DNA of 20,364 nucleotides from a virus. Of the stretch, positions 1,941 through 14,629 are shown one piece after another (the stretch's first letter is position 1; the number at the start of each line of letters is the position of its first letter). The position numbers and the translations under genes were made by a program. The stretch is taken from the IMG/VR virus record IMGVR_UViG_3300032333_000244, positions 1 to 20,364 of that record; one strand, given 5' to 3'. Below the pieces are notes generated by a model, which was not told the DNA's origin, did no database searches, and saw only the letters and a list, made by a program, of their open reading frames with translations.

Positions 1941-3002
1941 ATGCAGGACATTCGCATTTTCAACTATCCGTGGCACATTGCTCATCAGGACGCATTGATG
2001 AACATACCGGCTACTAAGTGGTTTTGGTTACAGCAATATAAGCGTCAGTACGGGGATACTCCACGAGGAGATATGATTACCCGATACGGGATTGAGTGGG
2101 TTCCTCATTATGAGAGTGGCAAGTATGATGTTGCATTGCTCCATTTAGACCAGCAATGTTTTGAAAAAAGTATTCGCGAGCGTGGTAAGGGAAGTTTGTT
2201 TGATGAAGTAAATGCCGTAATTAAAAATGACATTCCAAAGATTGTTATTATGCACGGTACGCCGTATTATCCTGAAATGTTTAGCTGTGATATTACTGAT
2301 GAGAATTACGAACAGCTTGGTTTCTCAAAAGACCAGATTGGAATGAGTTCAGAGCTTATTAGAATGTTTAAAGACGCAGTGAAAGATTTTGATTATGTGA
2401 TATTTAATTCAAAGACTGCTGCAAAGCAATGGGGATTTACTGACTCGACAAAAGGACGGGCAATTTGGCACGGTATGGATACGAGTTATTGGGTTGACCT
2501 GCCAAAAGAACCTCGTGTAGTAACAATGATTAGTCCTGCTGGTCTTGATATGTACTACGACCGCCAGTTCTTGAGAGCCGTAAAGGAACATCTTGAAGAA
2601 AAGAGTATTGAACACTGTCACATTACTGTGGACGCTAAGTTTAGAAATTTTGAAGAGTATCGTAACTTCTTAGGTCGTTCATTGGTGTATTTCAATCCGA
2701 CGAGAGAAAGCCCTATGCCTCGAAGCAGAACAGAAGCGATGTTGTCTGGTTGCTGTGTCGTAACTACTCCGAGTCAAGACGCAAGTGATTTCATAAAGAC
2801 CGGTGAGAATGGTTTCCTTATTCCTCGCAATCCTGAAACTGTTGCAAACCTGATTGAAGAGTTGATATTCGATTACAAGAAAGCAGTTGAGATTGGGCAG
2901 GCAGGTAAGAAAACTGCGACTGAAATCTTCTCAATGGACAGGTATACTAAAGAGTGGCGTGAGCTGCTTGAACAAGTTATTTCTAACCATAAAAAAGTAT
3001 GA
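1941..3002 (+). CDS. GT-B fold glycosyltransferase, GT4-like
   Basis: The 353-residue protein has the GT4 outline: an N-terminal half with IVIMHGTPYY and VIFNSKTAAKQWGF, the inter-domain HGMD motif, and a C-terminal donor-binding half. The latter carries ESPMPRSRTEAM (E256 and E265) followed by LSGCCVVTTPSQDASDFI and GENGFLIP. The spacing between the two glutamates is one residue longer than the usual E-x7-E. The role is sugar transfer from a nucleotide sugar in the cytoplasm; the acceptor is unknown. The stop overlaps the next start (ATGA at 2999-3002), indicating translational coupling with the following GT-like gene. The start follows ATTTATACAT with no SD. Confidence 0.82.
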   Translation: MQDIRIFNYPWHIAHQDALMNIPATKWFWLQQYKRQYGDTPRGDMITRYGIEWVPHYESGKYDVALLHLDQQCFEKSIRERGKGSLFDEVNAVIKNDIPKIVIMHGTPYYPEMFSCDITDENYEQLGFSKDQIGMSSELIRMFKDAVKDFDYVIFNSKTAAKQWGFTDSTKGRAIWHGMDTSYWVDLPKEPRVVTMISPAGLDMYYDRQFLRAVKEHLEEKSIEHCHITVDAKFRNFEEYRNFLGRSLVYFNPTRESPMPRSRTEAMLSGCCVVTTPSQDASDFIKTGENGFLIPRNPETVANLIEELIFDYKKAVEIGQAGKKTATEIFSMDRYTKEWRELLEQVISNHKKV

Positions 3003-4381: not shown

Positions 4382-6697
4382 ATGGCCTCTCTTTTTGAAC
4401 GATTGTCGAGTGCCTTTTCCTCTAAGTCTGAAACATTGCCTATACCTACAGGCAATCTTGATATTACCCAAGAAGCTTATTTTGGTAAGGACTTGAGTAT
4501 GACTCAAGGTGAATTGCTTAGAAGTATTCGAGGCTGGGTTTATGCCTGCGTGACCGCTATTTCAGATGAAGTCGCTTCTATTCCTTTGCATTTGTACAGT
4601 GTTAATCCTAAAACTGGTACGGTTGTAGAGGAGTTTAATCACCCAGTATTGGATTTGCTTTATAAGGTTAACGAGTTTACGACTCATTTTGACCATTTTT
4701 GGCTCACTCAAGCTTTCTTGGAAGCGACCGGTGAAGCTCCGTGGTGGCTTGAGAGAGGCGATAATGATGAGATAGTAGCTATCCACTTTTTGCAGCCTTT
4801 CAGAATCCGACCACTGATTAGTAAGGACGACAACAAAGTAATCGGTTATGAATATCAGACCGGTGCAGGAGCAAGTAAAAAGATAACAATACCAGCAAAG
4901 GATATTATCTTTTTAAAGTACCCTGACCCATCTAACCCTTTCCGTGGATTTGGAACATTACAGGCAGCAGCAGCTAGTGTTGATATTGATATGTACGCTG
5001 AACGCTGGAATAGTAATTTCTTTAAAAACGCAGCACGTCCTGATTCTATTTTGACTGTTAAGAGCAGTAAGAGAATGACCGACGAACAGAAACGAAGACT
5101 TAAAGCGAGCCTGAAAAAGAACTATAGCGGTGAATCCGCACATAGTGTAATGGTTCTCTTTGGTGATATGGAATTGAAGCCTTTTGGACAGAGCATAAAG
5201 GATATGGACTTTATCGAGCAGCAGAAGTTCTCGCGGGATAAAATCTGCGGGGTATTTCGTGTTCCAAAGTCTATCATTGCCCAGACCGAGGGAGTCAATT
5301 TCGCTTCATCAAAGACCGCAGAACAGATTTTTGCACGTTGGACAATTAAGCCTAAAATGGAGCGTTTAATACAGCAGTTGAATGAGTTCTTGCTACCTCA
5401 ATTTGAGGGTACCGAGAATATGTATTTGGATTTTGACAGTCCAGTAATGCAGGATACGACCGAGAAGCTCGAAACCTATAATTCAGGTTTGGATAAAGGT
5501 TGGCTTTCAATCAACGAGGTTCGTTCGCTTGAGGGTCTGGACCCTGTAGAGGGCGGGGACGTTATTCGATTACCACAAAACCTTGTTGATATTGGCCTTG
5601 ATACGAATACGAATCCTGTATTGCCAGAACGTAGTTTGAAAGGACTGACTGAAGAACAAAAGAATCTTCTTGCTAAGAAAGCTATCAAGCCAGCAAATGC
5701 AGGACGCTACAAACAAATGCTTGCTCGAAGTAAAGATTTTTATAAATTCAAAAAAGTTGAAGATACCGTTCGCGAAGCAGTAAAGGCTGCACTTCTTAAA
5801 AGTAATTTGGCTGGTGGAAAGAAGCCAGCAGAAGCGATTCAGCTTAAAAAAAAAATAGTTAAAAAGAGTGTACTTGATGATGTGGAGAAACTCCACTTGT
5901 GGAATGATGAAAAGAAAACTGATTTCGTTACCGCAAAGATTAAACTTTTTAATGAGAATGTAAGCGAAGTTGATGAGACACAAAAGAAAGTTTTCAGCCA
6001 GCAGAAAGATGAGACAATAAAACGTTTCAAGAAAGCGGTGAAAGTAAAGAAAGCCGAGGACGAAGAGATTGATGTGAACTATGATGAGCTGTTGCTTGAT
6101 GAGAAAGAAGAAACGAAACGTTATTTGCTCCTGTTTTACCCATTGTTCTCAAAGATTTACGGTGAATCATTAAAGGAAACTGAACGATTCATTGATGTAG
6201 ATATAACAATTTCAGTTGATGACCCTAAGGTTGAGAAGTACATTAACGCGCAGACCGAGAAGCTTGCAAAGAATGTAACACAGTTGACGAATGACAAGAT
6301 TCAAGAGCAAGTGAAGCTTGGTATCAAGTTGGGAGAGGGTGTAAGTGCATTGGAACAGCGATTGCGAGATACCTTTGATGAAATGGAACAATACCGTTCA
6401 GAGAGAATCGCACGAACGGAAACAGCTCGCTATAATGTAGCAGCTACCGAGGAAGCATTTGCTGATTCAGGAGTGGTGATTGCAAAGCAGTGGGTAATTG
6501 ACCCAAACACAGCGTGCGAGTTTTGCAAAATGATGGACGGAAAGATAATCCCACTGAACGGAAATTTCTTTAAAAAAGGTGAAACAATTACCGGTGCAGA
6601 CGGTGGACAATTGAAACTGGATTACGAGGCTATTAAACGACCTCCAATACATCCAAATTGCAATTGTGACCTTGCCCCCGTAACTATTAAAAACTAA
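4382..6697 (+). CDS. Portal protein fused to a MuF-like minor head protein
   Basis: The 771-residue protein joins two head proteins. Residues 1 to about 420 are an HK97/SPP1-type portal: an N-terminal helix (RSIRGWVYACVTAISDEV), clip and stem region, and a crown-like part ending near PVEGGDVIRLPQNL. The portal forms the twelve-subunit ring through which DNA is packaged and leaves. Residues about 420-590 are a lysine- and glutamate-rich linker. The C-terminus is a MuF (phage Mu gpF, SPP1 gp7-like) domain with RTETARYN (678-685), CEFC (712-715) and the closing HPNCNC (757-762), whose cysteines and histidine probably bind metal. Portal-MuF fusions are known, but this linker is long. A run of ten A in the linker could uncouple the two parts. 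The ATG directly follows a terminator T-run and lacks a normal SD. Confidence 0.9.
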   Translation: MASLFERLSSAFSSKSETLPIPTGNLDITQEAYFGKDLSMTQGELLRSIRGWVYACVTAISDEVASIPLHLYSVNPKTGTVVEEFNHPVLDLLYKVNEFTTHFDHFWLTQAFLEATGEAPWWLERGDNDEIVAIHFLQPFRIRPLISKDDNKVIGYEYQTGAGASKKITIPAKDIIFLKYPDPSNPFRGFGTLQAAAASVDIDMYAERWNSNFFKNAARPDSILTVKSSKRMTDEQKRRLKASLKKNYSGESAHSVMVLFGDMELKPFGQSIKDMDFIEQQKFSRDKICGVFRVPKSIIAQTEGVNFASSKTAEQIFARWTIKPKMERLIQQLNEFLLPQFEGTENMYLDFDSPVMQDTTEKLETYNSGLDKGWLSINEVRSLEGLDPVEGGDVIRLPQNLVDIGLDTNTNPVLPERSLKGLTEEQKNLLAKKAIKPANAGRYKQMLARSKDFYKFKKVEDTVREAVKAALLKSNLAGGKKPAEAIQLKKKIVKKSVLDDVEKLHLWNDEKKTDFVTAKIKLFNENVSEVDETQKKVFSQQKDETIKRFKKAVKVKKAEDEEIDVNYDELLLDEKEETKRYLLLFYPLFSKIYGESLKETERFIDVDITISVDDPKVEKYINAQTEKLAKNVTQLTNDKIQEQVKLGIKLGEGVSALEQRLRDTFDEMEQYRSERIARTETARYNVAATEEAFADSGVVIAKQWVIDPNTACEFCKMMDGKIIPLNGNFFKKGETITGADGGQLKLDYEAIKRPPIHPNCNCDLAPVTIKN
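5846..5855 (+). other. A10 homopolymer, possible slippage site
   Basis: Ten A in a row code for lysines 489-491 of the portal-MuF protein, after the portal domain and before MuF. Reading one base back or one base forward after the run meets TAA (5860-5862) or TAG (5856-5858) at once. Slippage in either direction would therefore make a protein of roughly 491-493 residues that keeps the portal part and loses MuF. It is the longest A-run I noted in a coding region; the next are eight A at 11077-11084 and 17153-17160. Confidence 0.4.
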
Positions 6698-6703
6698 CTT
6701 TAT

Positions 6704-9046
6704 ATGGATAAAACACTACAGGTAATCCAAGCGGAAACACAAGTCAAAGGCGGTAAGATGATTGCTATTGCGTCATCTGAAGCTGTTGACCGTGTTGGTG
6801 ATTCTTTGAAGTTATCAGATTGGGATTTGGTAAACTTCAAAAAGAATCCTGTGTTACAGGCAGGACACGATTATAATCCTCAATTTACAATTGGTATTGC
6901 AGAGGACATTCGTGTAGAGGGTGGTCAGCTTATATTTTCGCCTAAGTTCCACGAGATTACTCAATTAGCCCGAGACATTAAAAAGATGTACGAAGAGGGC
7001 TTTTTGAAAGCGTGGAGCGTCGGTTTTAAACCGGGCTCGGGCAAAGGAAGTAAGAACGAATTGCTTGAAGTGTCAGCGGTTGCGGTTCCTGCTAACCCTG
7101 AAGCTCTTATGCTTTCGATGAAATCAGCAAAAGAACTTGGAGAGACGACTATTGTCCAAGTAAAAGAATGGATTGAGGAAAATTCGAAAGAGGAGGTTAT
7201 GAAACCTGAACCGGACGCAGAACAGCCAATTCCAGCAGAAGAGAGTACTGAAAAAGATACGTCTGCCGCTACTCCTCCTGAAAAGAAACCAAAGACTCCT
7301 AAACAAAAACAATTGAGTAATGAATTAGTGAAAGAACATTTTGGCCTGTTGCGTAGTGATATTGAAGAAGCATTATCAACGCACGAAGCTCACCTCTTAG
7401 ATGAAGAGGTTAATAATGATGAAGAAGACGGTAGTGTAATGACTGACGAAACGTTAATGTATCCGAAACGAAAACCAAAAAAGAAAAAGTCTTTTGAATA
7501 TTTTGATAAGTTTGAAAATGCAAAAAAGATGTTCAAGAGTTTCGATGTTGCAAGTGCTCCGTCTACGACTACTGACGCTGCATATACATTGATTACCAAG
7601 TTCCTTGAAGTGAAAGTGAAAGATGTATACAACAACACGTTCTCGATTCCTATGCCGCTCTTGGGTACTTATCTTTCAGCCGTGAAACACGTGCTTGCAG
7701 GATTTGAACTCAAGGATACGCGAGCATATAGCTGGAATGGCGAGGTGCCTCCAAGCTACCAAGTGATTCAATTAAATTCAGAGAAGTCAGATGATTTCCT
7801 CGTGAATGGAATCCAGTTCCTTACTAAGGGAACAAAGAACTTGGTGGTTGAAACGTATCCTACGTGGTTCGGAATGAACATTACCATTAACTCGTCTGTT
7901 GATGAGAAAAAATGGAACAATGACATTCTCGGAGATATTAAAACGTGGGTTGACGAGAACAACTATTTGAAGAATGAACGTTTTTCATTAAGTGGTGAAT
8001 TTCTTGCAAAGACTGCTGACCAATGGGACGACCTGATATTGGAAGCAGATGTGAAAAAGAACCTTGCCCGCACGGTGAAGAACTTGAATGAGAAAGGCGT
8101 TGATTCAATTTCTCGTGGTGTACTGATGTATGGTGCGCCGGGGAATGGAAAGACAAAGAGCGGACGCATAATGATGAACGAATCAGAAAATACTTTTATC
8201 TGGGTTTCGGCAAAAGACTTGCGAGCCGTTGAGGGAGGTATTGGACTGGCGTTTGAGCTAGCACAGAAACTTGCTCCAAGTATTATCTTCTTTGAAGATA
8301 TTGACGGGTGGTTGAGCAAGGGAACGTGCGACATTATGAAAGGTGAAATGGACGGGTTAAAACAGGTAAAAGGAGTCGTAACGATTCTTACCTCAAATGA
8401 CCCTAACAATTTGCCAGACGCTTTGTTAGACCGACCGGGACGCTTTCACGATATTGTGAAATACGAATGTCCAAACAACATTATAAGAAAAGAGATGATG
8501 AGACAGTGGTTGAAAGGTGTAAGTTCAGAAACGATTGATATGGTGGTTGAAGAGACAGAGGGATTCTCTGGTGCTCATATGAAAGAACTTGCAGACTTTG
8601 CAATGGCGATAGCAACTGATGAAGCAATGGTGCTTGATGAAGCTGTGAAAAAGAGCCTTGAAAAGCTGAGGCAACAAAAAGTATTGGTACAGGAGATTCG
8701 AGATTCTGCAGAGAAGAAAGGCTTCGACGGAATGGTAGAAAAAGTTGGTGCTGTCCTGTCCAAGAAAAACAAGACGATAATCGGTAATTGTATTACCGCT
8801 ATCAATCAAACAAAAGACGCACTTGAGAAACTCCTCGAGGAGAATCAGGTTACTGCAACATCTGAAGATGAAGCTGCAAAGGCAGACAAGTCTAAAGAAC
8901 AACCTGCTCAAGAAAAATCTGCGTCACCCAAAGGTCGAACCGGGCAGAAGAAAAATGTATCCTCTGAGGATATTGCTTTCAATGCCTTAAAGCGAATAGC
9001 AGGGCAGGCAAGCTATGAGCTGAATCGTTTAAATCAGAAATCTTAA
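6704..9046 (+). CDS. Prohead protease fused to a Bcs1-like AAA+ ATPase
   Basis: The 780-residue protein opens with an HK97-type prohead serine protease (S78/U35 family), residues 1 to about 150. It has GHD (H55), AWSVGF (S105) and LLEVSAVAVPANP (E122 a candidate acid). An acidic and proline-rich linker (about 150-250) follows, then a middle domain (about 255-440) and an AAA+ domain. The ATPase has Walker A GAPGNGKT (477-484), Walker B IIFFED (527-532), sensor 1 N565 and the arginine motif RPGRF (577-581). The ED order in Walker B and the surrounding sequence resemble the Bcs1 branch of AAA proteins. The C-terminus is helical and coiled-coil-like, ending in a low-complexity tail. Position between portal and capsid genes fits the protease; the ATPase takes the scaffold position. 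I infer a role in procapsid assembly or maturation. An internal SD and ATG at residue 166 may yield the ATPase part alone. Confidence 0.88.
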   Translation: MDKTLQVIQAETQVKGGKMIAIASSEAVDRVGDSLKLSDWDLVNFKKNPVLQAGHDYNPQFTIGIAEDIRVEGGQLIFSPKFHEITQLARDIKKMYEEGFLKAWSVGFKPGSGKGSKNELLEVSAVAVPANPEALMLSMKSAKELGETTIVQVKEWIEENSKEEVMKPEPDAEQPIPAEESTEKDTSAATPPEKKPKTPKQKQLSNELVKEHFGLLRSDIEEALSTHEAHLLDEEVNNDEEDGSVMTDETLMYPKRKPKKKKSFEYFDKFENAKKMFKSFDVASAPSTTTDAAYTLITKFLEVKVKDVYNNTFSIPMPLLGTYLSAVKHVLAGFELKDTRAYSWNGEVPPSYQVIQLNSEKSDDFLVNGIQFLTKGTKNLVVETYPTWFGMNITINSSVDEKKWNNDILGDIKTWVDENNYLKNERFSLSGEFLAKTADQWDDLILEADVKKNLARTVKNLNEKGVDSISRGVLMYGAPGNGKTKSGRIMMNESENTFIWVSAKDLRAVEGGIGLAFELAQKLAPSIIFFEDIDGWLSKGTCDIMKGEMDGLKQVKGVVTILTSNDPNNLPDALLDRPGRFHDIVKYECPNNIIRKEMMRQWLKGVSSETIDMVVEETEGFSGAHMKELADFAMAIATDEAMVLDEAVKKSLEKLRQQKVLVQEIRDSAEKKGFDGMVEKVGAVLSKKNKTIIGNCITAINQTKDALEKLLEENQVTATSEDEAAKADKSKEQPAQEKSASPKGRTGQKKNVSSEDIAFNALKRIAGQASYELNRLNQKS
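7190..7201 (+). promoter_or_regulatory. Strong internal ribosome binding site and in-frame ATG
   Basis: GAGGAGG (7190-7196) precedes an in-frame ATG at 7199-7201, residue 166 of the protease-ATPase gene. The GAGG at 7190-7193 is five bases from the ATG. This is one of the best SD sequences in a window where most gene starts lack one. Initiation here would give a 615-residue protein with the linker and complete AAA+ domain but no protease, similar in logic to the nested scaffold start inside the lambda protease gene. Confidence 0.45.
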
Positions 9047-9050
9047 CCCG

Positions 9051-10271
9051 ATGTTTATGAAAAAGACAATCGAAATCGACGGAAAGAAATACGTTCTTAC
9101 CGAAGAAAAAGGTGTAGAATCTGCGGAAGAAACAGTTGAAGAAACTGCTGCAGAAGAGACTACTACGGAAACTGAGAATACCGTATCAAGTGAAGTACTT
9201 GAAAAAGCAACTCAGCAAGTTATGAAAAAACTTGGACTCGATAAAATCCACAAGTCAATTGAGGATTTGAAATCACAGGTAGCAGGTGATTCAAAAGAAA
9301 CTACCAAAAAGAAAGCGCTTATTAATCTTGGTGAATTGTTAAAGAAAGATGTAAGTGAGCTTACTGCACGAGAAAAAATCATTGGTTTTTTCCAAGCAGT
9401 GCTTCAGAACGACGTTGTGTCATTGAAAGCGTTGTCTGAGGGTACGCCTGCTGACGGTGGCTATCTTTTCCCAGATGAGTTCCGAGCAGAAGTTATTCGT
9501 GACCTTGAGGAACAGTCACGTATGCGTACTGAAGTTACCGTGATTCCTATGCGCCGAGATGTGATGAATATCCCTACTCTTACTAGTAAGCCTCAAGTTA
9601 CTTGGACAGAGGAAAACGCAGTGAAATCAACTACTACAGCACACTTCGGTCAAGTTGTGTTGACTGCGAAGAAACTCGCAGCGATTATGTACATCTCTGA
9701 TGAATTGATTGCAGATAGTACAGACATCGACGTAGTAAACTTCATTATCCGTCTCTTCTCTGAAGCGATTGGTGAAGAAGAAGACCGTGTTATTACTCGT
9801 GGAAACGGCACTAGTGAACCTACTGGTTTTGCTACAGCAACAATCTCTAGTCGTTCAGTTGCAGGCTCAAATCTTTCATTCGACGACCTTATCAATCTCG
9901 AATACGATTTGCCACAGAAGTACCACAGAAACGCGAAGTTCTACGTACACCGCAACAATATCCGTGAACTCCGAAAGATGAAAGATAGTCAAGGACGTTA
10001 CCTCTGGCAAGACCCAGTTTCGGCTAGCTCTCCTGCTACTTTCCACGGTTACCCTGTAATCGAAGACAATAACCTTTCAGAATCTGAAATTTATTTCGGA
10101 GACTTGAAAATGGCTTATTGGCTCGGAGACAGACAGCAAATGACAGTTAAAATATCGCAAGATACTGAAACTGCATTTACGAAAGACCAAACGGCTATCC
10201 GTGTCGTTTCTCGTATCGCTGGTAACGTTGTTCGTGCACAAGCCCTCCGCAAACTTACCAATATTCCCTAA
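9051..10271 (+). CDS. Major capsid protein, HK97 fold
   Basis: The 406-residue protein is a phage major capsid protein. Residues 1 to about 115 are acidic and helical, as in the delta (scaffold-like) region that prohead proteases remove. The mature part probably begins before EGTPADGGYLFPDEF (from residue 130), which leads into the N-arm and E-loop. The P-domain follows (KLAAIMYISDELIADS, EAIGEEEDRVITRGNG), and the C-terminal strands contain GDLKMAYWLGDRQQM. It assembles as hexamers and pentamers of the capsid shell. A second ATG at 9057 (MKKTIEID) is closer to the A/T-rich start context used elsewhere and may be the true start. The gene directly follows the protease-ATPase gene. Confidence 0.93.
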   Translation: MFMKKTIEIDGKKYVLTEEKGVESAEETVEETAAEETTTETENTVSSEVLEKATQQVMKKLGLDKIHKSIEDLKSQVAGDSKETTKKKALINLGELLKKDVSELTAREKIIGFFQAVLQNDVVSLKALSEGTPADGGYLFPDEFRAEVIRDLEEQSRMRTEVTVIPMRRDVMNIPTLTSKPQVTWTEENAVKSTTTAHFGQVVLTAKKLAAIMYISDELIADSTDIDVVNFIIRLFSEAIGEEEDRVITRGNGTSEPTGFATATISSRSVAGSNLSFDDLINLEYDLPQKYHRNAKFYVHRNNIRELRKMKDSQGRYLWQDPVSASSPATFHGYPVIEDNNLSESEIYFGDLKMAYWLGDRQQMTVKISQDTETAFTKDQTAIRVVSRIAGNVVRAQALRKLTNIP

Positions 10272-10987: not shown

Positions 10988-11417
10988 CGTAACAACTATT
11001 TTGATTGGTTCTGCGTCAGGTTTATTTGTATCTGTTGCAACTGCCTTTGTCGGTTATTTAATTAATAGACGTAAGCAAAAAAAAGAATTGAAGAAAATGG
11101 ATATTGATATAGAAACACAGATTCGTGATGACTGGCGTGATGATATAAAAGGCTGGCGTGAACACGTGTCAGAGCTAAATAAAAAGTTTGATGATTACCA
11201 AAACAAAACTGAAATAAAGATTGAAAAACTGCAAACGCAGGTCGATGAATGGAGAACAAAGTACGAGGTACTCTTTGATGAACATTTACAAATGCAGAGA
11301 GACAATGAGCACCTTTTGGGCAGGATTAGCAATTTGACTATTTCTAACAACACTTTGCAGGTCGATGTGAATCGTCTTCGCAAGACCTTGGCAGAAAATC
11401 ATATAGATGGATTTTAG
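10974..11417 (+). CDS. Membrane-anchored coiled-coil protein
   Basis: The 147-residue protein starts at ATG 10974, with GGAG at 10967-10970 as a closely spaced SD. Residues about 6-28 form one transmembrane helix (TILIGSASGLFVSVATAFVG), followed by a basic stop-transfer stretch (NRRKQKKELKK) and a long coiled coil to about residue 140. The shape resembles XhlA-type or spanin-like lysis accessory proteins, but no family motif is seen. It overlaps the upstream membrane protein and the downstream peptidase gene, suggesting coupled expression of a lysis cassette. Confidence 0.65.
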   Translation: MDDNNVTTILIGSASGLFVSVATAFVGYLINRRKQKKELKKMDIDIETQIRDDWRDDIKGWREHVSELNKKFDDYQNKTEIKIEKLQTQVDEWRTKYEVLFDEHLQMQRDNEHLLGRISNLTISNNTLQVDVNRLRKTLAENHIDGF

Positions 11418-12834
11418 AACTATGCGACACCCAGTTTCATACAAAGTATTCGAGAATGATATTACCTTTGGGTATAATTGGCTTGCTTATGATAGCGACT
11501 CTAAGGTGTATCACCCTGGCATTGATTACAATAAAGGTGCAGGGAACTCTGATTTGGGCGAACCGGTCTATGCGGTTGATTTCGGCTTTGTTGAAAAGAT
11601 TGCAATTACGACTACAGGGTATGGACGGCAGGTTAATTTGAGACACGATGACGGGTATTCAAAGTATGCTCATTTACAGACTATTTTGGTTAAAGAGGGA
11701 GACTATGTTACGCCTCTGACGCAGATTGGAACTATGGGAAATAGCGGTACCACATCTGCTCATACTCATTGTGAATTACTAACAAATGAACTCGTTGCTT
11801 ATGCGAAGACAGTAAGGAAAGACTGGTGGCAGTTCTACCCTGTCAATCGCTCTAAGGCGTGGGTTCAGCAGTATTATAAGAATCCTTATATGTTTTTAAA
11901 TCCAAGATTATTTAAGCTAATGATTGTTTTCAATAGTGTACAAAAGCCTGCTGGTTATGATGTGAATATTAAGAAATTACAAGATTGGTTTTTTGAAAAG
12001 TCAGGTAATCAGATGAAGCTTGATGTAGTCGATGTGAAATTTACCGATTACCAGAACGCTATTTGGAATCAGACGACTTATATGGGTGGAATTAATGATT
12101 TGATTATTGACCCTGCCTATTATCGTTACTGGGTTGCCCCTCACGCAAGTGGATATGACTTAGTGAGCTTTGCGATGTCAGAAGCTTTATGGAAATCGCC
12201 CGGAGTTATTGGATTTTCTCGTGCTCCAAAGATGTTAGGTATCGAGGGAATGGGACAAATTTGTCGTTCTGGTTGGAGTGATAGCAGGTTTAATGACCTT
12301 TGTGATGGTGATGAATTTATTGGTGTTCTTAGACACGAAATTTGCCATTCATTATATAAGATGTGCGATAAAGGAAATTTTGATAAGACACACGAGTACG
12401 AAAAAGAAAATAATATTGCAAAAGTCTTTAATGATGTTGATTTTAAAAAGATGATTGGTTGGAATCCTGCAGTTGGTGAACGAATGTTTAAATATGGTGG
12501 AGTTCCTACAAAGAAGAAGTGGATATTTAGTGGCAATCCTGTAAACAATAAAGTGTATCGAACTACTGATAACCGATTATTCTTTAAGTACTTGAATGGT
12601 TGGAAACAGATTCAAGAAACTGAATTTGAAAGTGCTGTAAAGAATGGTGCAGAATTTGGCTCAATGGCAGTACAAGAGGGTAATTGGATTATTGACCAGA
12701 TTGGTGGAACTTTTCCTCCAGAAGAACCCGGTTCTATCATTCTTGAAAGAATTGTAACTAGTACCGTTGAAAAACTTGCAGCACAAGTTGCTGGGTGGTC
12801 GACTACAATTCCTAACAAGCATTTATTTAACTAA
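11407..12834 (+). CDS. Endolysin-like protein with M23 and HExxH metallopeptidase motifs
   Basis: The 475-residue protein begins with a LytM/M23 peptidase domain (about 1-165): HPGID gives zinc ligands H36 and D40, and AHTHCEL gives H119 and H121. M23 enzymes cut peptidoglycan peptide bridges. The next part (about 175-370) is different. It contains RHEICHSLYKM with the HExxH zinc motif H310-E311-H314, and a downstream HEYE (H329, E330) that could supply the third ligand. The C-terminal 100 residues are aromatic-rich (VYRTTDNRLFFKYLNGW) and may bind a surface. No signal peptide is visible, so export would need the nearby membrane proteins. It could equally be a virion-borne lysin. An ATG at 11422 avoids the overlap with the upstream gene and is an alternative start. 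Confidence 0.82.
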   Translation: MDFRTMRHPVSYKVFENDITFGYNWLAYDSDSKVYHPGIDYNKGAGNSDLGEPVYAVDFGFVEKIAITTTGYGRQVNLRHDDGYSKYAHLQTILVKEGDYVTPLTQIGTMGNSGTTSAHTHCELLTNELVAYAKTVRKDWWQFYPVNRSKAWVQQYYKNPYMFLNPRLFKLMIVFNSVQKPAGYDVNIKKLQDWFFEKSGNQMKLDVVDVKFTDYQNAIWNQTTYMGGINDLIIDPAYYRYWVAPHASGYDLVSFAMSEALWKSPGVIGFSRAPKMLGIEGMGQICRSGWSDSRFNDLCDGDEFIGVLRHEICHSLYKMCDKGNFDKTHEYEKENNIAKVFNDVDFKKMIGWNPAVGERMFKYGGVPTKKKWIFSGNPVNNKVYRTTDNRLFFKYLNGWKQIQETEFESAVKNGAEFGSMAVQEGNWIIDQIGGTFPPEEPGSIILERIVTSTVEKLAAQVAGWSTTIPNKHLFN

Positions 12835-13255: not shown

Positions 13256-13348
13256 CATATGTCTGCTGAAAATATTGAAAACTTATCTCCTGAATCTGGT
13301 CGTATGATTCGTGAAGACGGCACTATTGTAAATATTGCTGACGCTTTT
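13181..13348 (+). repeat. Direct repeat from duplicated fibre N-termini
   Basis: Positions 13181-13216 and 13313-13348 match at 33 of 36 bases, 132 bases apart. All three differences are single-base changes, so the duplication is fairly recent or is kept by recombination. The repeat could serve as a site where fibre bodies are exchanged. Confidence 0.75.
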
Positions 13349-14629
13349 TTTGTTGATACAGATGGAAATATTAAACTTAGAACTTCAGGTAATAATTGGA
13401 CTCGTTCTCCATCACTTGTGGGAGCGCTTATTGACCATATAAATTTAGACCAGACCTATTCAGTGTTCATAAGTGGTAATTATGCGTATACTGCGTCGTT
13501 AAGTGCAAATGCTTTAAATATCATTGATATTAGTAATCCTGCTTCACCCGTAATTATTGGAACTCTAATTGATAACACTAATTTAGATGGAGCACGAAAT
13601 GTATTTGTTGCAGGGAAGTACGCCTATGTTGCGTGTCAAGATGATAATTCATTGCGTATTATTGATATTTCTGACCCTACTAGCCCTACAATAGTAGGTG
13701 GTATTAAAGATAATACAAACTTATTACGATGTTATTTTGTGAATGTTGCTGGTAAATACGCTTATACAATTAATAATTCGGATAATTCATTGCGTATTAT
13801 TGATATAAGTAACTCAACTGCCCCCACAATAATCGGCGGTATCAAAGATAATACTAACCTTGCAGGAGCATACGGAATGAATGTGAATGGACGTTATGCG
13901 TATGTAGCGTGTGGCACTGATAACAGTCTACGAATTATTGATGTGCTTGACCCTACGACACCCGTAATTGTTGGGGGAGTGAAAGACAACACAGTACTCA
14001 ACCAAGCGCGCGCAGTGTATGTATCAGGGCGTTATGCATATGTTACTGCACACGGCAATAATCGTTTTCTAATTATTGATATTAGTGACCCAACTACGCC
14101 AGTTGTTATTGGAAGTGTTAAAGATGACGTAAATTTAAATCAGTGCCGTGCAGTTTCAATACAGGGAAATTTTGCTTATGTTGCTGCTGCTAATAATGAT
14201 AGTCTTACCGTCGTAGATATAAGTGATAAGACAAATCCAGTAGTTGTTTCGACTTACCAAGATTCAACAAATTTAGATTCCCCTTACAGTGTTTTTGTTG
14301 TCGGACATTATGCCTACTTGACTACAAATGTATCTGATAGTTTGGTAGTTGTTCAAATTTCAGGATTTGATTCACCAAATATTAAAACTGGGAGTCTTTC
14401 TGCAAATTCAATTAATATACAAGATGACGCAATTTTTAATAAAAATGTGTATATTCAGTCTGGTATGAATGTTGGTGATAGAGGAATACAAAGCGGTGGC
14501 ACCATTGCTACTGAAGATGAGCTTGAAGTAAGTAAGGTTAATAAAGGCATTATTCTTAAAAGTCCTGATGGTACAAAATGGCGTATTACTGCTGCAGATG
14601 ATGGAACTTTAAGTGTTACTGAAATTTAA
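13259..14629 (+). CDS. Seven-blade LVIVD-type beta-propeller fibre or adhesin
   Basis: The 456-residue protein has a short N-terminal module (GRMIREDGTIVNIADAF), seven tandem repeats and a C-terminal module. Each repeat is 46 residues and carries a YAY-like core (YAY, FAY in the sixth), a SLRIIDISDP-like strand and a DNTNL turn. This is the LVIVD repeat pattern, which forms propeller blades. The C-terminus includes SPDGTKWRITAADDGTLSV, a motif like those ending some phage fibre or tail proteins. I infer a virion surface protein that binds the host, with the N-terminus docking to the virion. There are no transmembrane segments or signal peptide. The ATG follows TTAGCAT with no SD. Confidence 0.8.
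   Translation: MSAENIENLSPESGRMIREDGTIVNIADAFFVDTDGNIKLRTSGNNWTRSPSLVGALIDHINLDQTYSVFISGNYAYTASLSANALNIIDISNPASPVIIGTLIDNTNLDGARNVFVAGKYAYVACQDDNSLRIIDISDPTSPTIVGGIKDNTNLLRCYFVNVAGKYAYTINNSDNSLRIIDISNSTAPTIIGGIKDNTNLAGAYGMNVNGRYAYVACGTDNSLRIIDVLDPTTPVIVGGVKDNTVLNQARAVYVSGRYAYVTAHGNNRFLIIDISDPTTPVVIGSVKDDVNLNQCRAVSIQGNFAYVAAANNDSLTVVDISDKTNPVVVSTYQDSTNLDSPYSVFVVGHYAYLTTNVSDSLVVVQISGFDSPNIKTGSLSANSINIQDDAIFNKNVYIQSGMNVGDRGIQSGGTIATEDELEVSKVNKGIILKSPDGTKWRITAADDGTLSVTEI
13415..14380 (+). repeat. Seven tandem 138-base coding repeats
   Basis: The YAY-like core recurs at 13481, 13619, 13757, 13895, 14033, 14171 and 14309, exactly 138 bases apart each time, with no insertions or deletions. Neighbouring copies share long identical stretches, for example 26 bases at 13643-13668 and 13781-13806. 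Copies two to five are the most alike. Confidence 0.9.

Follow-up and report, generated by a model that had tools for sequence, protein, structure and literature searches.

An exchangeable AAA+ ATPase module within a phage HK97-type prohead protease, tentatively read as a scaffold-tethered assembly chaperone

Introduction

We know of no tailed phage in which capsid maturation uses a phage-encoded AAA+ ATPase carried in the chain of the protease. Among AAA proteins, YjoB is a putative chaperone, and both YjoB and Bcs1 are regarded as chaperone-like or as translocases of folded proteins, not as threading unfoldases. The subunits of Bcs1 work in concert on a folded substrate that is not threaded (PMC11143374; PMC12219900). 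In phage heads, the prohead protease gp245 of SPN3US trims off its own C-terminal propeptide, processed head proteins, both internal and ejected, are known from SPN3US and T4, and propeptides of T4 recruit chaperonins in head assembly (PMC10052503).

The DNA analysed here (hereafter the window) is the entire IMG/VR virus record IMGVR_UViG_3300032333_000244, 20,364 bases in length, in which a gene between those for the portal and the major capsid protein joins a prohead protease to an AAA+ ATPase. This gene was compared to its relatives with respect to recurrence, evolutionary exchange and possible function.

Results

Organization of the fusion gene and its surroundings

The open reading frame at 6704..9046 (plus strand, as for all features located below) is a single frame that runs from an ATG at 6704 to a stop at 9046 and encodes 780 amino acids. 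Its order, confirmed by the alignment of the fusions, is an HK97-type prohead protease (residues 1-140, 6704..7123), an acidic linker modelled with low confidence (residues 141-295, 7124..7588), an N-domain (residues 296-440, 7589..8023), an intact AAA+ ATPase domain (residues 441-668, 8024..8707) and a C-terminal scaffold-like segment (about residues 680-780, 8741..9043). That a protease and a complete AAA+ ATPase share one chain had been proposed from the sequence alone (the sequence-only reading), and is borne out by the single frame together with matches to PHROG and Pfam AAA profiles. The residues then named are all in place: the catalytic H55 (6866-6868) and S105 (7016-7018), the Walker A motif GAPGNGKT (residues 477-484, 8132..8155), the Walker B motif IIFFED (residues 527-532, 8282..8299), the sensor-1 N565 (8396..8398) and the arginine-finger motif RPGRF (residues 577-581, 8432..8446). 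Overlooked at that stage were the N-domain, the C-terminal segment and the fact that Walker B carries ‘ED’, not the usual ‘DE’, a variant also present in Bcs1.

Profile searches confirmed the flanking genes, a portal protein fused to a Mu F-like domain upstream (4382..6697, E 2e-74) and an HK97-fold major capsid protein downstream (Phage_capsid, 9051..10271, E 6e-65), and it is in the slot between them that a prohead protease is normally encoded. Further downstream of the capsid gene follow an HK97-gp10-like protein and a tail tube protein. Upstream of the head genes, the window also encodes two glycosyltransferases (57-1700 and 1941-3002). A gene at 11407-12834, after the capsid gene and before the tail genes, codes for a Peptidase M23 domain followed by a long C-terminal extension, and an LVIVD beta-propeller repeat protein (13259-14629, Pfam E 2e-58) is encoded amid the structural genes. 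The sequence preceding the fusion gene (6686-6703), like that at the starts of the other fusion genes, is A+T-rich and lacks a Shine-Dalgarno sequence, as in Bacteroidota and relatives, which gives a hint as to the host group only. An internal Shine-Dalgarno start yielding a free AAA product was considered; the true starts lack such sites too.

The protease domain and candidate processing sites

The protease part of the window matches the PHROG head maturation protease family phrog_80 (E 1e-13), phrog_11321 (3e-14) and PHROG 2753, while its match to TIGR01543 is weak and under the cut-off (E 0.002). The window protein itself does not match the Peptidase_S78 profile, which is matched by nine of the 17 aligned family members at E <= 0.01 (best 1.5e-6). 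H55 and S105 are invariant across these 17 proteins, comprising nine fusions and eight relatives devoid of the AAA module. The catalytic His and Ser, the profile matches and the location beside genes for a portal and an HK97-fold capsid identify the domain as an HK97-type prohead protease. This assignment was made by sequence, since the model of the full-length structure is poor in the protease part (mean pLDDT 57). The expectation of the sequence-only reading that prohead proteases are usually single-domain enzymes does not hold in this clade: here the protease is as a rule followed in the chain by a long middle of variable sequence and by a C-terminal segment that is conserved, and the AAA module is one occupant of the middle.

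In the capsid proteins, LKALSEG or a near variant borders the mature domain. By analogy with HK97, the cut presumably falls after the K of this motif, in the window between K126 and A127 (K126|A127, 9426-9431). The presence of this conserved boundary leads us to infer that the N-terminal region of the capsid protein is cleaved by the protease. Of 50 proteins, 47 show a loose motif resembling this presumed site, K/R-[AGS]-hydrophobic, in the 28 residues that follow the protease domain, mostly at one position, whereas shuffled sequences give a mean of 10; the window has K-S-A after its protease, an incomplete match. Within 28 residues before the C-terminal segment the motif is found in 13 of 17 AAA-positive chains (shuffled mean 3.4) and in seven of 19 AAA-negative ones (shuffled mean 3.1), and is thereby commoner where the module is present (Fisher p 0.023), although the choice of this motif was post hoc and the proteins compared are related. 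In the window, K-S-F (residues 280-282) precedes the N-domain, and K-G-F (residues 674-676, 8723..8731) may represent a protease site at the boundary of the AAA domain and the C-terminal segment. The motifs surrounding the module are regarded as candidate cleavage sites, as a lead and not a demonstration.

Motifs and predicted fold of the AAA module

The AAA domain passes the Pfam cut-off (PF00004, E 9e-17). In the nine aligned fusions G477, P479, G480, G482, K483, T484, E531, D532, N565 and all of R577-F581 are invariant, as are the two catalytic residues of the protease, and across all 17 complete modules Walker A, the acidic residues of Walker B, the sensor-1 Asn and the arginine fingers are retained without exception; the N-domain is conserved in these modules as well. 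By these criteria the module qualifies as an AAA+ ATPase of the classic AAA clade, for which ATP hydrolysis and ring assembly are predicted. A role in defence was rejected, as weak PADLOC matches to IetA reflect the shared AAA fold only.

The structure of the module was modelled with good scores (pLDDT 90.8, pTM 0.84). The best fold matches in the PDB spanning both the N-domain and the AAA domain are YjoB (ranks 1-3) and Bcs1 (the next ten), these top 13 having TM scores of about 0.4-0.55 with a differing domain arrangement. The TM of about 0.5 may reflect either a different placement of the two domains or distant relatedness. In sequence searches of the PDB, the AAA domain is closest to Cdc48, PAN and FtsH, while a profile of the N-domain retrieved neither YjoB nor Bcs1 at E <= 10 and linked it to no solved structure. 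As the N-domain lacks such a match, the module is termed YjoB/Bcs1-like by fold and not a member of either family. The aromatic-hydrophobic-glycine pore loop 1 of threading unfoldases (the FtsH, Cdc48 and ClpX type) is canonical in only about one of the 17 modules (L090) in an alignment read by eye, and the loop is shorter than in FtsH, which sets the modules apart from this type.

Recurrence of the fusion

The sequence-only reading had asked whether other phages carry the fusion in their head modules. Such fusions exist at 19 further distinct loci, of which 16 are complete; their sources comprise at least 12 metagenomes and one contig of a metagenome-assembled genome (MAG), and the carriers belong to a family of uncultured tailed phages. 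After removal of duplicates, 20 loci are AAA-positive (window included), 42 are without AAA and eight are undecided as they lie at contig ends. In each of the 17 complete AAA-positive chains the protease is followed by a linker (66-326 aa), the N-domain, the AAA domain and the C-terminal segment, in this order, while three further chains end at a contig edge inside the module. Neither the window protein alone nor its AAA part retrieved any relatives in pattern scans; these were reached via homologues of the capsid gene and extended by a scan with the fusion alignment and a genome scan. The fusion is absent from 50,697 phage and 72,556 plasmid records, in which no record covers 80% of the query and each match covers one part at a time. 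One fusion resides in a 3.4-kb contig of a Cloacimonadota MAG, and none was found in 124 other genomes of this phylum. Another genome of the phylum holds a stand-alone 490-aa relative of the AAA module (L103, 1459-2931), flanked by two similar ORFs resembling endonucleases.

Presence, exchange and selection of the module

Relatives lacking the AAA module retain the protease, and most also retain the C-terminal segment, with other sequence in between. Since this segment is conserved with and without the module, the module is considered to lie inside a protease-scaffold protein. The exchange is most apparent in the pair L054 (with AAA) and L065 (without), whose flanks align without gaps, at 96.3% DNA identity upstream (1,391 bp) and 95.9% downstream (1,355 bp), while between these flanks 1,257 bp coding for the AAA module in L054 stand against 195 bp in L065. 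Their capsid proteins are identical at 335 of 346 compared residues (97%), which implies that no capsid substrate strictly needs the module.

On the protease tree, the distribution of the module requires 14 changes, of which at least 11 are forced by well-supported branches, and a vertically kept fusion was rejected because of this scatter. On the capsid tree 10 changes are needed, no fewer than with shuffled labels, and presence is not clustered; both trees derive from short alignments, which leave much unresolved. The AAA modules form one clade versus three stand-alone outgroups (98/92). For L056, L008 and L060, a grouping picked after the trees were seen, the protease data reject the relationship supported by the AAA tree (p-AU 0.0015). 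These conflicts, together with the exchange between L054 and L065, show that movement or loss of the module is uncoupled from the capsid. No AAA copy in trans was detected on the AAA-less records (the largest being 81 kb, and some possibly incomplete), in a search that included positive controls.

Despite its patchy presence the AAA module is maintained under strong purifying selection: dN/dS, taken from four close pairs in which the estimates are unsaturated, is about as low in the AAA domain (0.08-0.15) as in the protease domain (0.10-0.26), the C-terminal segment having values of 0.20-0.43.

The middles of AAA-less proteins (for example L065, L083, L086, L091, L096, L099) include a KLPHHK-type region, zinc-ribbon-like and GHTH-rich stretches and a helical segment, none of which is named by Pfam above the cut-off, and some of these alternative segments also stand beside an AAA module (L020, L054). 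The neighbouring capsid gene is unsplit in the window; in 12 loci (L014, L015, L018, L019, L020, L021, L049, L054, L071, L076, L080, L087) between one and five inserts, each about 0.25-2.7 kb long, interrupt it. Their positions recur near residues 142, 187-192, 212-216, 335 and 376-384, and Rfam identifies group I introns in the capsid genes of L019, L020 and L021.

Discussion

A proposed tethered assembly chaperone

The repeated gain, loss and swapping of the module suggests an accessory chaperone or a packaged cargo, and not a required part of maturation. The reading preferred here, to which a probability of roughly 0.45 is assigned, is that the gene encodes a prohead protease-scaffold protein with an accessory AAA+ assembly chaperone of the YjoB/Bcs1 type in its variable middle, tethered to the scaffold. 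The N-terminal protease and the C-terminal scaffold-like segment would carry the chain into the growing prohead, where the modules may assemble as an ATP-driven ring. Such a ring could aid the folding, oligomerisation or incorporation of head proteins without threading them, candidate clients being the capsid protein, the portal and the protease itself. At maturation the protease would cut after its own domain and around the module, and the freed module might then leave or stay behind. Of this scheme the single chain, its recurrence, the intact ATPase motifs, the purifying selection, the predicted fold and the optional nature of the module are established by the data above. The proposed cuts are favoured by the candidate motifs after the protease and before the C-terminal segment, and by the precedent of gp245, which trims itself (PMC10052503). 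Support for a chaperone function comes from the YjoB/Bcs1-like fold and from the precedent of T4, whose head assembly recruits chaperonins (PMC10052503), while the module-less relatives with a 97% identical capsid protein and the unclustered presence on the capsid tree speak against it, as do the TM of about 0.5, the other domain arrangement and the missing sequence match of the N-domain. The natural pair L054/L065, near-identical around the gene, makes the role of the module directly testable.

Alternative explanations

Cargo is an unlikely explanation but the one that fares best among the alternatives. On this view the module, lying between protease and scaffold, would enter the prohead with them, be cut out by the protease, remain in the capsid and be ejected into the host along with the DNA, like the internal head proteins of T4; its swapping would reflect host-directed selection. 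The cassette-like exchange within 96% identical flanks, the 11-14 changes on the protease tree and the conflicting histories of AAA and protease in the one grouping are all consistent with cargo, as are the candidate protease sites on both sides, with the difference on the C-terminal side modest in its p value and found post hoc. No ejected AAA chaperone is known to us, and the other middles are small zinc-ribbon-like or unassigned segments, none of them recognised as an effector, all of which counts against cargo in spite of the precedent of processed, ejected internal head proteins in SPN3US and T4 (PMC10052503). A wider version, that the gap between protease and scaffold is a swappable slot by which interchangeable modules, an ATP-driven chaperone among them, are loaded into the capsid within the protease-scaffold chain, freed by the protease and delivered into the host, is viewed with somewhat more doubt still. 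The protease-scaffold gene is at any rate a site of whole-domain exchange, and could be a general route by which chaperones or cargo are added to proheads.

An ATP-driven proteolysis of the FtsH or Lon kind is improbable; in it, scaffold or delta regions would be unfolded or extracted by the AAA ring and passed on to the protease. In its favour are the presence of both domains in one chain and the PDB sequence searches, in which Cdc48, FtsH and PAN come closest to the AAA domain. The 66-326-residue linker and the candidate self-cleavage site directly after the protease are difficult to reconcile with such a coupling, as are the near-absence of the canonical aromatic pore loop and the top structural matches to YjoB and Bcs1. 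An essential unfolding motor is disfavoured by this fold and by the dispensability of the module. The sequence-only reading was right that a linked ATPase occurs in the head module, since it is real, present in many phages and under strong purifying selection. Its role as a motor required for maturation finds no such backing, given the near-identical relatives without the module, its independence of the capsid phylogeny and the lack of an AAA in trans.

A neutral or selfish insertion of the domain, of no benefit to the phage, is less probable again: the patchy presence of the module and the intron-rich neighbouring capsid genes would fit a locus prone to insertions, but the strong purifying selection and invariant ATPase motifs do not, nor does Pfam show any splicing or homing domain in the module. 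Finally, an assembly error or chance joining of two genes, which the sequence-only reading had named as a possible refutation, near 7150-7250, is rejected as next to impossible, as the fusion recurs in the same order in all 20 distinct loci and shows no G+C break at the suspected junction.

Comparison with known systems

With the HK97-type prohead proteases (Peptidase_S78/U35; PHROG 80) the window protein shares the gene position, the His and Ser, the PHROG matches and, in its relatives, the S78 match, but adds to the chain an AAA+ module and a conserved C-terminal segment. Joining of the protease to another head protein likewise occurs in the prohead protease/major capsid fusions (NF045541, phrog_617), in which the partner is a capsid protein and not an ATPase; the match of the window to NF045541 is under the cut-off. 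The module most resembles Bacillus subtilis YjoB (PDB 7w42) in fold over the N-domain and AAA, yet YjoB stands alone, at about 19% identity and a TM of about 0.5, whereas the module described here forms part of a head protein. The next best fold matches, to mitochondrial Bcs1, concern a non-threading AAA protein (PMC11143374), but Bcs1 forms heptamers in a membrane and translocates the Rieske protein, a substrate of which the phage module shows no sign. Related AAA domains are encoded by other phages (phrog_10440 of Erwinia phages and Stenotrophomonas phage BUCTxx99, and the crAss-like cr10_1), although as separate genes that are not located between portal and capsid. A literature search, mostly of open-access papers, gave no account of a fusion of prohead protease and AAA+, its recurrence or its cassette-like exchange. 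Both domains are of known kinds, and what appears new relative to the literature searched is their union in a prohead protease, the recurrence of this union and its cassette-like exchange. The closest parallel in maturation is offered by SPN3US gp245 and T4 gp21, prohead proteases acting on internal head proteins, of which gp245 also trims its own C-terminal propeptide (PMC10052503); compared to these, in which no ATPase is described in the protease chain and the cleavage motif of SPN3US (AXE) is a different one, the window protein combines a prohead protease with an AAA+ module in a single chain.
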